This document shows, one piece after another, positions 29,898 to 40,090 of a stretch of DNA of 64,000 nucleotides. Location of the stretch: NCBI GenBank assembly GCA_028015205.1, contig CM051518.1:30470001-30534000 (forward strand), read 5' to 3'. The notes under the pieces were generated by a model. That model did not search any database and had not been told where the DNA came from. It saw only the letters and a list, made by a program, of their open reading frames with translations. The first letter of the stretch is position 1. Each line of letters begins with the position of its first letter. The position numbers and the translations under genes are program-made. The stretch comes from Mytilisepta virgata (taxonomy: Eukaryota > Mollusca > Bivalvia > Mytilida > Mytilidae).

Positions 29898-31038
29898 CCG
29901 GCGTTTTGCATTTGCGCCAATTTTGTTTTTTTTTTCATTTGGGCTAATTTACGGGTAAACGCAAGAAACATAATTTATTTATATGCTAACAAAAAATACC
30001 ACTTCCGTCTGCAGTCTGCCCCCTGCTCACCACGGGGAGGTGGATGTTGGATTTCGAGCAGGATAAGTTTATTGTTTGTTTGTTTGTTTAGTTGGGGTTT
30101 AACGCCGTTTTCAGCACATTTTGGCCATTTCGCGGCGGCCAGTTTTTAAAGGTGGAGGAAGCCGGAGTACCCGGAGAGAACCACCGACCTTCGGTAGGAA
30201 AATTGGCAATCCTTGTCAATTAAGATCGGAGTCGAACACACCCCGCCACAGGTGAGATTCGAACTCACAACCCCAGCGTTGACAGGCTAGTGATCAGTAA
30301 TAGTCATGACGAACTACCTAGACCACTCGGCCACCGAGGCCCCTAAGTTTATTGTAAAAGTTTGTAAAACTATATACATCACAAGTAAAATAGCACTTTT
30401 TAAATAAAATAATAAGGGTTTGACGTCAAAAGCACATTTAAATTAACAAGTTGAGTATTTGTATGCAACAATTCTGATGAACTGCGACCTTCTGATTTCT
30501 TCTCTACAATACATCCGATAGTTTTCAGTAACAAAGTCATTTTTTTCCATTTCATAGTTTCTTACGACTGCTGGCATATCGAGCATTCTTTAAATCACTT
30601 GGTTGAACGTGATTTTTTTGCATTCCCTGTAACTCGGTTCTTACAATTTTGGATGGTCTACTTGAGGTATCACCAGAGTGCTTCCTGCATCTGACACGGA
30701 GCTGTTTTACCTCAGTCTTGTGGTCATCCGTAATGTGGTTATGTTCATGTTAAGTTTTCACAATTGTCATTCCTTCACTGTCAGTTGTATTCCTAGCTTT
30801 ACATAACTTACTTGTACATCTATAGCCATTCCTTCACTGTCAGTTGTAATTCTAGCTTTACATAATATCTAATATGTTGGCGCAATTGATATACTGGCGT
30901 AATTAAGTTGTGGCGCAAAAGGACGTCAAACTGGCGCAAACTGATATTTCCCTGCTGCTTTGTATCAGATCTTACCTGTTAAAATTTAATTGGCACAAAT
31001 TAAAACTTTGTTTTGGCGCAAATGTCATACTTCTCACG
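29898..31038. mobile_element. ~1.1-kb insertion with GCATTTGCGCC ends
   Basis: This segment splits a repeat unit exactly. GCATTTGCGCCAA-TTTTGTTTT near the left end is mirrored by AAAACTTTGTTTTGGCGCAA near the right end. TGAC at 29894-29897 and 31039-31042 may be a 4-bp target duplication. The interior holds several TGGCGCAAA-type motifs (30880-31025), a ~70-bp direct repeat (CATTCCTTCACTGTCAGTTG at ~30768 and ~30828) and the SINE at 30076-30343. The transposon class is not clear. Confidence 0.55.
30076..30343 (-). mobile_element. tRNA-derived SINE, full length, 12-bp target duplication
   Basis: TAAGTTTATTGT at 30064-30075 is repeated exactly at 30344-30355. On the minus strand the 268-bp insert begins with a tRNA-like head. 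Its box A is TGGCCGAGTGG (30323-30333) and its box B is GAGTTCGAATC (30256-30266), so it would be transcribed by RNA polymerase III. A conserved-looking middle (GGTTCTCTCCGGGTACTCCG near 30165) and a (CAAA)n tail follow. The head resembles a long-variable-arm (Leu/Ser-type) tRNA. It is not a functional tRNA gene. A bivalve SINE superfamily with a conserved central domain is likely, but the family was not checked. Confidence 0.92.
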
Positions 31039-34480: not shown

Positions 34481-35390
34481 TTTCCGTTCAATAACTGGAG
34501 CCCGGGGGGTAACTCCCTATATGCGGGGATGTACGGAAAATTTGGGTGGGTTTTTCATGATTTTTGGTATTAATTCGAGGTATGTTTTAAAAAACTAATA
34601 TTTATTCGAGTTGTATTTACATAAAGTTTGAGTGCTAGTCTATTCCTCAGATATTTGTATAGAAACATCAGTATTTTTCGGGTAGGTATTTTTATCAAAA
34701 TTATTTTTCCAGTATATTATTGACAGGTATTCTAGTATTTGCTCGGGTACCTTTTCTTAAGCCATTTCCGCACATCCCATTAAAAAATCCAGAGCCGGTC
34801 GCGCTTTGTTTCCACTTACCGAGGGTCACAAATCTGGATATGCACGCATGTATTTTGTTTCAGTCGGTCTTCGTGAAACTTGATGTGAAGACTAGAGTCC
34901 ACCAGGCGACAATATAACTTTTGTTAGCTTGGTTTTGTGTTCTGTTTTTGTTTTTGTTGTTTTGTTTTGGCCTAAATATGTAAGTAAAGTGTATCATATT
35001 TGGTCCAAAAAAGAGAATTGGCATATTTCGCAGCGGTGATGTATGTGAGTCCGTAATATTCCTGTTAGAGAGATACCATATCGACGGAGACACGAACAAA
35101 ATGCTACTAGTATACGTAAAAAGTAACTGCAGAAGACCATACACTTTCTGATTTTGACGGCCCTTTACATATAGTATTAGGGTGTTTAAGAATTTCCTTG
35201 ACCACTTGTGCAGTCACAATTATGTTTTTATTATTCAAATTAGCAATCGCTTTAAAAAAAATTGCAATCAAAGATAAACTTACCTCTGTATAAATCAGAA
35301 GAAGAATACCCTAAAGTGGCAATAATAATTAATTGACAAATAAGTTTAACAAGTTCGTCGATAACCATTTAGGGGATAACTGTATTGTAT
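34481..35390. other. Intergenic, nothing recognised
   Basis: AT-rich with a short GC-rich piece (GAGCCCGGGGGGTAACTCCC near 34498). No exon or repeat ends were recognised. Confidence 0.45.
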
Positions 35391-35520
35391 TTTATCAGTT
35401 GCCGACGTAAACCGCTGGTTTTACCGTCGCAAATTGAGTTTACCTGGCGACGCGTAGCGGAGCCAGGTAAACGGATATTTGCGATGGTAAAACCACCGGT
35501 TTATGTCGGCAACTGAAAAC
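35391..35520. repeat. Foldback with GC-rich hinge upstream of PTK7
   Basis: Left arm 35391-35448 (CAGTTGCCGACGTAAACCGC, TGGTTTTACCGTCGCAAAT, GTTTACCTGGC) is mirrored by right arm 35462-35519. The short hinge is GACGCGTAGCGGA. Arms match over ~58 bases with a few mismatches. It is of the same style as the foldbacks at 799 and 21077. Confidence 0.82.
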
Positions 35521-35696
35521 CAAAACAACAATCCAAACAAACTGAAGAGCAAATTAATGCCAAAATGACAAGGGTAAAGCCAAAACAAAATACTTAGAAA
35601 TACTTCTGTGTGTCTTATTTTACCTAAATTTTCCAAGTGTCTTCAAGACGTCATAATTTTAATTCTAATGCAACATAACATAAAACGTCCTTTTTG

Positions 35697-35764
35697 ATTT
35701 TAGGCCTTGAGCACAACTGATGAGTCGTAAATCGACGAAATGTGCACATCTTGTGCATTAAAAT
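35697..35764 (+). ncRNA. Type I hammerhead self-cleaving ribozyme
   Basis: All elements of a type I hammerhead occur in order. Outer stem I is ATTTTA (35697-35702) with TAAAAT (35759-35764). An internal loop is GGCCTTGA/AT. Inner stem I is GCACAA (35711-35716) with TTGTGC (35751-35756). The core is CTGATGA (35717-35723). Stem II is GTCG/TAAAT/CGAC (35724-35736). GAAA follows at 35737-35740. A minimal stem III is TG/TGCA/CA (35741-35748). The TC (35749-35750) completes the AUC cleavage triplet, with cleavage expected after 35750. A two-base-pair stem III and an internal loop in stem I are typical of hammerheads in animal Penelope-like elements and retrozymes. No reverse transcriptase and no second tandem copy was found nearby, so it is probably a remnant or solo copy. 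Confidence 0.85.
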
Positions 35765-35953
35765 TTGTATCAAAGAATGTGTTGTATTCTTAACAGTTGT
35801 GTCTAACGGATACAGTAACTCGGAAAAATATGAAGCTGCACAACAAAGAAATATAAACGCCTACATAAAATATAAATTTGCAATTATCTGTCTTTTATAC
35901 CAAGTTTAGCGCAGGTAAGCCAGTAGTTCAGTACTTTGTTGGGATTCGATAAG

Positions 35954-36518: not shown

Positions 36519-36570
36519 ATGGAATATAAATTTTATACGAAGACATCTATTGCAGTTTTTTGTTTTGTTG
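36519..36570 (+). CDS. PTK7: PTK7 coding exon 1 (signal peptide)
   Basis: ATG at 36519, then a Lys-containing n-region, a hydrophobic core (SIAVFCFVGLI) spanning the splice, and a probable signal peptidase site after CA, before QD. The donor GTAAGT starts at 36571. The 5' UTR extent is unknown. Confidence 0.8.
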
Positions 36571-39349
36571 GTAAGTTTTGCAAACTTTGCTTTAATCAAT
36601 TAATGAACACCAATGTCACAAGCTTTGCCTACATGTAGCTAATTTTCCAAAGTGCCAAAATTAACACCAAGATAATGTCATTTTCATATGTTACAATTAA
36701 ATCAGATTATTTCACGCTATGTGCAATCTTGAAAAACGTAATAACCTTTCATAGTTGTTATCTCCCTTGCCTCCAGGCCAGTGCTGTCAGTCTAATTAGC
36801 TAGGCCTAACTGCAGGAGTTTTTTTGCACTTCCTAATCCAGTTTTTCAATACCCATGTCAACACTGCTTGATATAATTTGTTGGTCTAATTGCAATTATA
36901 GATGTTTTTAAACTGTACAGTAATGAAGAATATTACAAATGTACATTTTTTCATACATTAAAAATTACAATAAAAAACATCATAGTACCAAATAATTCTA
37001 ATCTGTCTTTTATTTTGTCATATGTTGTAGAAAATTATACATTGGTGATGAACAAATTACTGTAGTTTTGTTTTGCATGTCTACTCATTTACCATATATC
37101 TAAATAGTTTCTATAGTTTATTTATTGGTAAAATCAAGGTTTCAAAATTTTTCTTACAGATTTCAAATAAAATAAATATTCCCTACTTCATTTCTTCATA
37201 ATTTGCAGTTAAAGGGGTTGAAAACAGACCATATAGTTGCACATGTCAAATTAAAAATTGAGTAAAGTTTTACAAACAAGATAAAATTATTTTCCATCAC
37301 TCTTTTGTAAAACAAATAAGATTATTCACCAAGTTAGTTAACAAAACTAATTACCATACAAAAAAATTAAAATTCACCCGTTATCATTTGCAAAATGTGT
37401 TAATATTATTTAATGCCGCTACTAGAGTTTTGGTGTTTTGTAATTCAAATTAGGAGAATAAAATTGATTTTAAATAAATATCTGTCAAATCTACCATTAT
37501 TTTGTATAACATTAGGTGAATAGGTTGAAGAGGTTAAACACTGGAGTACAATAGATTTAGTCTCTAACAGAGTTGCTTTGTTGACATTGCTTGTAATAAA
37601 AATATTTGGTATTTATTGTCACTTAATCTCTATTTAAAGAAATAAACTCATGTGACTCATCTAAAGACTGCATCTGGAGGTTTGTTGGTCAGTGACATAA
37701 ACATTTGTGCAATTTATTTCTGTTACTTATCAGAGTGAATTGAGATCTGAAACCAATTTTTTCCCCACAGATTTGTATATTCAAGTAAACCGTGTCCTGC
37801 ATCCTTCTCATAAAATGTTTGCAAAAAAGTCCCAGTTAAGTAAGAGGCAAAGAAAATGAGAGATGATGTTAAGGAGTGTTGTTATTTATAATACAAACTG
37901 ATATATCTATACATCAGAATGTCAGAGTAACACAGAAAATCAAATAAAACAACACTGTATCTGTCAAGTATTAATATGATGGACAAATGATACTCATATA
38001 GAGAGGTGTGAGAGCTGCTTATACTGACAGACTGATAAACTTTGTAAACAAAAATGTCACACAGTGATAGAACTATAAATCTCTGGGTTTAGTAAACTTC
38101 TCTATCACACTATAGATAATACTAATACCAGGTAATGATAGAATTATCATCAGACTTTAGGTATTCTTGGTGACACTTTTAATCCGAAGAGATTTTGTAG
38201 AAGCAAAGAAACAACATGGAATTCTAAAAACGATCATTCAAGAATTTGTCAGAGCTCTAAATGTTTTATTTATTTACATTATTTTTATTTTATTAAAAAA
38301 TCCTTGTTGTCACTATTTCTGAAAATGCAATCAAAGTGTAAAACCACATACTTTACAGTAATATCTGATGTATTTTTATGAAGATAATGTGAAAATTTGT
38401 AATTACAGTAATGAGAGTATGATTTGATTCATATTTTATCACTCTTTCTAATGGCCATTACTGCTGTTATAAGATGTACCTGCTGTTATAAGATGTACCT
38501 GCTGTTTACAAGTTGTTTAGATAGACAATTATAGGTCCTCTGTGTATACAGATAATATTACCAAAGCTTTAAAAGTCATATTCAGTATGGCTGTAAAACC
38601 AAAATATTAAGTTTTCAAAGAGATAAGGATTAAAATTAAAGAATGTGGGGTATGCATCAAATAGACAAAATTCCATTATAATATTATTGGATATACATAA
38701 TACTGGATTTTATTAAACTGATTATGAGCCATCAGGTGGCATATATAAAGATAGACATTCCAGTATCTATCATCTTAAGACACATAACAAAGATATATGA
38801 TATAATTTAATTATTAGCAATAAGTGTCCATTTCAGATGCTTATTGAAACAGACATTTTTATAAATTTTTAGTTCCCCTTTGACCATTTTCAAGTAAATA
38901 TTTTGAATATCGGGAAGTTATGGTTAATATCCCAAGCTTAAAATCACCATACTAAAAATAGGTTGTGTAAAAAAACTATTTAATTTGTGAGTTCTTGATT
39001 AAAAACATGTAGATGTCAATAAATATAAAACAGGAACATTATTATATTGCAGGATTAATATGTGCACAAGATACATTTTACTTCAGTCAGAAACCACAAG
39101 ACAAGTCTGTTGTAGATGGAACAGAAACCATACTTCTCTGTGATGTGAACAGTCGTAGACATATCGTGTTTGACTGGATTCAGAATGGTAAACCAGTTAC
39201 TAATACAACAAGACGTTTCCAGGAAGGAAGTTACCTTCGTATATTACGTGTGACAAGGGAAGATGATGCAGGACCATTCCAGTGTATTGCAACAAATATA
39301 ACTTCAGGATTCTCTCTTCAGAGTGGAGAAGCCACATTGAATATACAGT
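36519..39349 (+). CDS. PTK7: PTK7-like receptor, signal peptide and first Ig domain (5' two coding exons)
   Basis: PTK7 is a single-pass surface receptor with seven Ig domains and a catalytically inactive kinase domain, a co-receptor in Wnt/planar cell polarity signalling. Exon 1 (36519-36570) and exon 2 (39053-39349) join in phase 1 to give a 116-residue start. The signal peptide is MEYKFYTKTSIAVFCFVGLI then CA. An Ig domain follows with B-strand Cys (ILLCDV), core Trp (FDWIQNG), the RRFQEGSYLRI stretch and the F-strand motif DAGPFQCIA. Sequons NTT and NIT are present. RRF..GS.L and D.G.FQC.A agree with PTK7 domain 1 as I remember it, more than with other Ig receptors. The ATG has A at -3, G at +4 and an in-frame stop at 36501-36503. 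The remaining domains would lie beyond 64 kb. Another PTK7/off-track-type Ig receptor is the main alternative. Confidence 0.83.
36571..39052. other. PTK7 intron 1
   Basis: 2.5 kb of AT-rich sequence. A 21-base direct duplication (GCTGTTATAAGATGTACCT, ~38464-38505) is the only structure noted. No additional exon was recognised. Confidence 0.6.
39053..39349 (+). CDS. PTK7: PTK7 coding exon 2 (Ig-like domain 1)
   Basis: A 297-bp exon between TATATTGCAG and GTAAGT. It is a symmetrical 1-1 phase exon, as is usual for Ig-domain exons. It encodes about 99 residues from the end of the signal peptide to TLNIQ. Its composition is clearly less AT-rich than the surroundings. The open frame continues upstream to 39013 and downstream to 39420, but both extensions are intronic by the splice signals. 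Confidence 0.9.
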
Positions 39350-40090
39350 GTAAGTACCTTTCATTTCATTGCACCTTTACAGTCATTGATACAAGTCTAC
39401 ATTTTGATACCTGTTTTTAGTTATATGCTGTAATGATGATGATTTAAAACAAGTATGAAACAAATTCACAAGAATTTTCCTTTTAATTTCATAAATTTTA
39501 AACCGATTAATGTTCAGACACTAATTTAGTTGGTATTACATATAAGTTCAATATGTGAACCTAATAATAAAGAAATAAGATCTTGTCTGTTGTTTCAAAG
39601 AATTTGTTCTGTTAAATCCAGGGGTATCAGTTCTTGTCTTCAGTAGAGAATAAATAATGAGTATATCTCTCAAATACCTGAAAAATACTTGCCTGTTTGT
39701 ACTGATATCATAGAAACATTATAATGTACAAAAACATCTTTTTTTAAATTACAGTTCATTGTTATGAGTTGAATTTCAATCAGTTTATTAGAATGTTTTT
39801 GTTGGCTTAGCTATTTTAGTTTTATATTTCTCCTATATTTTTGTTATTTTCTTCTTTTATTTGACTCTTTTTAACCCAGAAAACAAATAACTGACAATTT
39901 ATTGTAATTTTGACTGAAGGCAGAGTAGCTATTTTAGGATTGTTTCATAACAGATGGTCAGGTTACATCTAGCTATGATTATATGCCTTTTTGATTTCCA
40001 ATATTTGTCAGTTGCAGTTTGATTTTTCGAGATCTTTTATAATCTCTTATAAGACCTGTTATTTATGTATTGGTTTACACTATTGGGTAG

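Follow-up and report, generated by a model that had tools for sequence, protein, structure and literature searches.

A hammerhead ribozyme relic in Mytilisepta virgata belongs to a retrozyme family that shares a start module with EN-first Penelope-like elements

Metazoan non-LTR retrozymes were described by Cervera and de la Pena in 2020 (PMC7229834), who give the mussel family a length of about 350–390 bp. Penelope-like elements (PLEs) were proposed there as movers on the grounds of the hammerhead, tandem copies and co-existence, not of a common sequence; in the available parts of PMC7229834 and PMC7761336, retrozymes of the build found here are already published, PLEs are suspected of moving them, and the autonomous element responsible for animal retrozymes is left open. 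A further point of reference is the Poseidon PLE of Anolis, an EN-last element whose reverse transcription, as reported in PMC11167929, starts internally in the RNA. The family analysed here resembles the published metazoan retrozymes in its type I hammerhead with a short stem III, its unit of approximately 348 nt, its low GC content, its head-to-tail arrangement and its many dispersed copies, and differs from them in that 33 of the 41 rows found with the hammerhead query are shorter than one unit, the other 8 being longer.

The window, by which we mean the whole 64,000-nt stretch of DNA that was analysed, carries a type I hammerhead ribozyme motif on its forward strand, located with the full stem I at 35697–35764. 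As the original prediction described, direct reading finds the conserved core CUGAUGA (35717–35723), a stem II of GUCG/CGAC with the five-base loop UAAAU (35724–35736), the conserved GAAA (35737–35740), whose last A pairs with U35749, a two-base-pair stem III and an AUC triplet. Stem III consists of the A-U pair plus UG/CA and is capped by the loop UGCA. Stem I, also read directly as predicted, has an outer helix of 6 bp (AUUUUA/UAAAAU), an 8 × 2 internal loop and an inner helix of 6 bp (GCACAA/UUGUGC). The core, the three stems, an NUH site and an open stem I, which together define a type I hammerhead, are all found in the motif. Hammerheads are expected to cleave directly 3′ of the AUC triplet, and the predicted cleavage site lies after C35750 (35750/35751).

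Thermodynamics and covariance models are of limited help here. RNAfold favours another fold of the motif, at −13.4 kcal/mol against −5.9 kcal/mol for the hammerhead, and 27 of 200 shuffles fold equally well (z = −1.12), so that folding energy alone gives the hammerhead no support and the case for it is comparative. The Rfam type I model RF00163 matches positions 35711–35756 with 29.8 bits, the E-value being 2.9e-5 for a search of 701 nt and 2.7e-3 for the full 64 kb. The original prediction had named the lack of a covariance-model hit above threshold as grounds for refutation, and formally that is what was found, the curated gathering score being 34 bits; on the other side, at least six loci in the genome exceed 34 bits with the same model (73 of 120184 candidates scored), five of them in the family of the window copy (L106, L107, L108, L109 and L111) and one in a sister family. 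Rfam is a weak test of minimal hammerheads, and is also blank for two loci with hammerhead-like motifs, L083 and L088. The predicted improbability of a chance origin is borne out by at least 40 places in the genome that match the hammerhead query at 92–100% identity (40 of 862 candidates scored). In addition, the six pairs of inner stem I form with differing letters in 36 of 36 cases, G-U counted, across the window motif and five sister-family hammerheads (L110, L116 twice, L115 and L112, the last with one core letter altered). These comparisons confirm the hammerhead as a real motif, with cleavage as its predicted activity.

By family comparison, the window copy spans 35697–35778 on the forward strand and corresponds to positions 266–347 of the 348-nt majority unit, that is, to the final 82 nt of a retrozyme unit truncated at its 5′ end. 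The tail at 35765–35778 links the hammerhead to the 3′ end that the family members share. Judged in this way, the window holds the remnant 3′ end of a single non-autonomous copy of metazoan type, an ordinary relic of a retrozyme, and the original prediction of a solo remnant or retrozyme monomer was right in kind. The search for tandem copies that it proposed finds them elsewhere in the genome, with no tandem partner seen in the window. A separate, inverted fragment of a retrozyme body (unit 184–263, 85% identity) lies on the reverse strand at 35514–35586. Twin priming comes to mind, as the fragment stops at unit position 263 and the hammerhead copy begins at 266, yet 110 nt between the two are unmatched. 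The fragment adjoins a long, MITE-like inverted repeat at 35392–35519, with 43-nt arms of 91% identity; folded as RNA, 35380–35530 gives z = −14.1. Immediately 5′ of the hammerhead copy, 39 nt at 35661–35699 match L074 876–914 at 97% on the minus strand of the window, perhaps as a further repeat.

A longer retrozyme query gives at least 62 matches in the 1.03-Gb genome (5771 candidates, of which 40 were scored). Scoring covered about a hundred places in all; from the numbers of candidates, the family may run to thousands of copies. In the 78 loci assembled, the unit is approximately 348 nt long, starts with TTATTTTTACCACTGAGTCGATGCCACTGCTGGTGGA, carries the hammerhead at its 3′ end and is repeated head to tail in many loci, with a GC content of 0.36–0.40 (8 units). 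The family thus places its hammerhead in a small tandem repeat of low GC within the 150–450 bp range of metazoan retrozymes, and the window copy is a single, truncated member of it. A stable circular fold of the unit was looked for in 8 of 19 units, in which the energies are unremarkable (z from −1.92 to +0.38).

The two ends of the copies are arranged very differently. At the 3′ side, 74 of 83 chained elements end no more than 10 nt from the family 3′ end, at unit 345–354 of the L022 reference, and 56 end exactly at 354; in the majority unit this common end lies 29 nt beyond the cleavage site. The adjoining 3′ flank starts with NTAT or TAT in 53 of the 67 copies that end at unit 352–354. The 5′ ends, by contrast, are scattered across the whole unit, and the 74 rows with ends at 345 or beyond range in length from 82 to 1178 nt; about three of these rows, realigned to a neighbouring element (L055 second, L021 second and L052 first), are not independent. 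There is a small excess of 5′ ends near the cleavage site (unit 313–325; 5 of 74 rows, about 2.8 if even) and just over one unit (339–345; 4 of 74, about 1.5 if even), but neither amounts to a marked accumulation. An apparent cluster at unit 28–31 of the L022 reference arises at least in part from mismatches of that reference copy, and the majority reference was used instead. Chains shorter than 45 nt are omitted from the end, flank and length counts; the end, flank, length, identity and derived-letter counts leave out L003, L009, L013 and L057, each of which represents the same or a near-identical stretch as another locus, and L031 and L035–L038, which are array loci on contig C1. Reverse transcription that begins at an internal point of a circle or multimer of the RNA would produce this pattern of one shared 3′ end, 5′ ends at many places and lengths above one unit.

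Adjacent units share more with each other than with units elsewhere. In 28 pairs they have 58 derived letters in common, where a trans control predicts 17.7, and unit identity is 0.882 in cis against 0.869 in trans, being higher in cis in 19 of the 28 pairs. More than half of the derived letters (32) stem from the arrays at just two loci, L033 and L072, possibly through later conversion, and the remaining 26 still exceed the roughly 9.5 expected. Target duplications are too weak to serve as general proof of insertion, the mean score being 4.80 in 74 copies and 4.33 in the 366 chimeric controls. L041 (14 nt) and L053 (10 nt) alone surpass the best control of 9, which L007 ties; in L041, TATTT lies within the duplicated target.

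The genome also contains at least 95 GIY-YIG matches (150 of 491 candidates scored), which mark PLE-like elements, and 12 of these places were examined. Two of the 12 are EN-first PLEs, which we take to be of the Naiad type, with the GIY-YIG domain followed by a weak reverse transcriptase (RT) match in one open frame. This order, GIY-YIG before RT in a single frame, is seen in PLE-1, where one copy has a frame of 1011 codons and the other scores 25.5 bits for GIY-YIG, above the cut-off, and 17.9 bits for RVT_1, below its cut-off of 29.6. The PLE-1 unit is 3.37 kb long and its tandem unit starts with TTATTTACTACGACTGAGTCACTGCCACGGCCGGTGGA. A relative, PLE-2, accounts for 23 of the 107 listed RT matches at 61–62% identity, and is inferred to be EN-first as well from its relation to PLE-1 and from one open frame of 1035 codons. 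PLE-1 itself contributes 54 of the 107 listed RT matches at full length and 99–100% identity, and its 300-nt 3′ ends are 100% identical in 40 of 40 among the matches listed (40 of 783 candidates scored). To judge from these near-identical copies, PLE-1 is a recent burst.

The retrozymes and these PLEs share a module of approximately 40–100 nt, situated just past the common 3′ end, at the tandem junction, in two PLEs and two retrozyme families. When the majority retrozyme unit (fam1) is compared with the whole PLE-1 unit, the highest-scoring local alignment coincides with the junction of each, with a score of 35, or 39 across the junction; none of 5000 shuffles (maximum 33) and none of a further 300 (maximum 34) reach 35. 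Control comparisons stay lower, with a maximum of 25 in 26 slices of the window and of 24 in 22 other pieces of PLEs. In the second retrozyme family, present as a dimer in L116, the unit L116b starts with TTATTTACAACCACTGGGTGGATGCCACTGCTGGTGGA and matches PLE-1 with a score of 39 (41 across the junction), again at both junctions, where 500 shuffles reach at most 30. Among the eleven sister-family loci probed (L110 and L112–L121), L116 alone shows the module. For PLE-2, whose unit is incomplete here, the only 5′ piece compared is L143, which has the module at its junction: unit 1–79 of fam1 scores 64 against it, compared with a maximum of 41 in 1000 shuffles and 22 elsewhere in L143, and L116b scores 57 over approximately 105 nt. 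The mussel retrozyme carries a similar start module. A secondary structure common to the module was looked for and is unsupported, and scans of viral contigs for the module and for a mussel-type hammerhead give 0 matches.

The PLE-1 3′ ends were inspected in 20 copies out of the 54 with a full-length RT, and TTAT comes next in all 20, extended to TTATT in 19, one of the 20 being a tandem junction; five other PLE-1 ends show TTAT in 4 and TTCT in 1, and a sixth was sought and not located. Nine of 10 PLE-2 ends run into TTTTT, like the start of the PLE-2 unit itself and not like TTATT. The EN-first PLEs resemble the retrozymes in their unit-start module, T/A-rich junction and tandem arrangement. 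They differ in encoding an endonuclease (EN) and RT and in their hammerhead content: pieces A and B of PLE-1 contain no CTGANGA, with no Rfam match in B, and PLE-2 has a single CTGANGA in L143, with no Rfam match in the three pieces scanned.

These features lead us to propose that the retrozyme RNA is probably copied by the enzyme of an EN-first PLE from the module junction, which would give the ends and dimers seen. In the putative cycle, tandem retrozyme copies would be transcribed and their hammerheads would cut the RNA to monomers of approximately 348 nt, which a host ligase, by analogy with published retrozymes, could close to circles. Closure would set the unit-start module TTATTTTTACCACTGAGTCGATGCCACTGCTGGTGGA right behind the segment to be copied. 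EN-first PLEs have a 5′ end homologous to this module, so that the endonuclease-reverse transcriptase of such an element would recognise the retrozyme RNA by it. The enzyme would nick DNA rich in T and A, often at TTATT, and start on the RNA at an internal point 29 nt past the cleavage site and immediately before the module. From there it would cross the ligated site, might exceed one turn and could stop anywhere, which would yield one 3′ end for all copies, 5′ ends at many positions and partial dimers arranged head to tail. Uncut multimeric transcripts would account for the copy ends as well as circles do. For the window copy, copying would have stopped after 82 nt, keeping the ribozyme without the start module, so that it would not be expected to make a circle of its own.

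Since the unit-start module is common to both at their junctions, the retrozymes look like parasites of EN-first PLEs that are circularised by their hammerheads. We lean, with less assurance, towards extending this to animal retrozymes in general: a PLE 5′-end module would be placed behind the start by circle ligation, and the PLE enzyme, which is telomerase-like, would prime on nicked T/A-rich DNA and read round the circle, sometimes more than once. If true, the purpose of the hammerhead would be to make circles that unite the start site with the recognition module. The junction module names a concrete enzyme and RNA as candidate copying machinery for animal retrozymes. Among the titles and abstract openings surveyed, none reports a start-site module that EN-first PLEs have in common with retrozymes; what is new is the likely partner, EN-first PLEs sharing the start module, whereas retrozymes of this build are already known.

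The ends of the copies could also be explained if the family were a SINE mobilised by a LINE, with a linear RNA ending in GAAUU copied from that end by the LINE enzyme and the hammerhead as a passenger. A common 3′ end, 5′ truncation and the few target duplications of 9–14 nt are typical of LINE/SINE pairs too, and because the PLE-1 shuffle maxima of 33 and 34 come close to 35, we have trimmed our confidence in copying by a PLE and slightly raised that in a LINE. We nevertheless consider the LINE unlikely: tandem copies continue past GAATT, which makes the copying junction internal to the RNA, the module beyond GAATT matches PLE unit starts, and copy lengths exceed one unit. It is more improbable still that the module is a common repeat inserted independently in PLEs and retrozymes, or a satellite picked up by both. 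The module does build a 73-bp tandem array on contig C1, as such a repeat might, but it occupies the unit junction in four families, two of PLEs and two of retrozymes, and outside the junctions no match in the compared pieces rises above background.

Least credible of the alternatives is a domesticated ribozyme that cuts read-through or 5′ transcripts of PTK7. The core is intact, the motif lies on the strand of the proposed gene, and the ATG taken as the PTK7 start (36519–36521, forward strand) is found by direct reading 769 nt past C35750, as the original prediction placed it. The gene is a plausible candidate for PTK7: the immunoglobulin exon at 39049–39417 scores 59.1 bits against Drosophila Otk, while the highest bit score, 72.3, belongs to Contactin 4. 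The suggested cutting of PTK7 RNA finds no support, however, as the window copy is one among many near-identical dispersed copies, in which the hammerhead letters are conserved no better than the unit body. CTGATGA is intact in 19 of 36 retrozyme units (0.53), compared with 0.55 for 7-mers of the unit body. Extra conservation of the hammerhead was also looked for in 36 units of the longer query, leaving out L013, L031 and L035–L038, and was not found. A gene-associated regulatory hammerhead would be a single conserved copy tied to its gene, whereas the window copy is a member of a dispersed family. Regulation of PTK7 was set aside as the default reading for these reasons; as a relic, the window ribozyme gives no evidence for such control.

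Ten of the 12 GIY-YIG places examined have the GIY-YIG domain at the end of the open frame. These EN-last elements of the same genome resemble the retrozymes in bearing hammerhead-like CTGANGA motifs that, drawn by eye, have pairing partners for stems I and II; they lie after the open frame in L082, L083/L084/L093, L088/L091 and L092. They were rejected as retrozyme partners on comparison of 3′ ends, as no retrozyme tail was found in those examined and several copies terminate at or near (TA)n. The original prediction had likened the two-base-pair stem III to hammerheads of both retrozymes and PLEs; the likeness holds for published retrozymes, and the hammerhead-like motifs of PLEs here look smaller by eye. 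Poseidon of Anolis (PMC11167929) shares with the system described here an internal start, an AT-rich target, partial tandem copies and a hammerhead nearby. Unlike the EN-first elements, it is EN-last, and its start site reportedly lacks homology to the DNA that is cut; in the present system the flank and the RNA junction are alike.

The start module of the retrozyme (unit 5–80) makes up the 73-bp array, which runs through L080 1721–2785 in 10.5 copies and leads into a nearly full unit; the array also occurs in L031 and L035–L038 on contig C1, and is perhaps a satellite seeded by the retrozyme. The second hammerhead retrozyme family (L110 and L112–L121) gave 18 matches from 17 candidates, and the end of L115 resembles that of the Mytilus retrozyme. 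Elsewhere in the window, microRNA models match 818–940 on both strands below their cut-offs, as expected of a long hairpin. On the reverse strand, 30001–30062 is a weak match to an HDV-like ribozyme (RF02682, 32.9 bits; curated score 44), and 30244–30340 is a 97-nt tRNA-Ser-like sequence with the anticodon ACT (30.3 bits), perhaps a tRNA-derived repeat.
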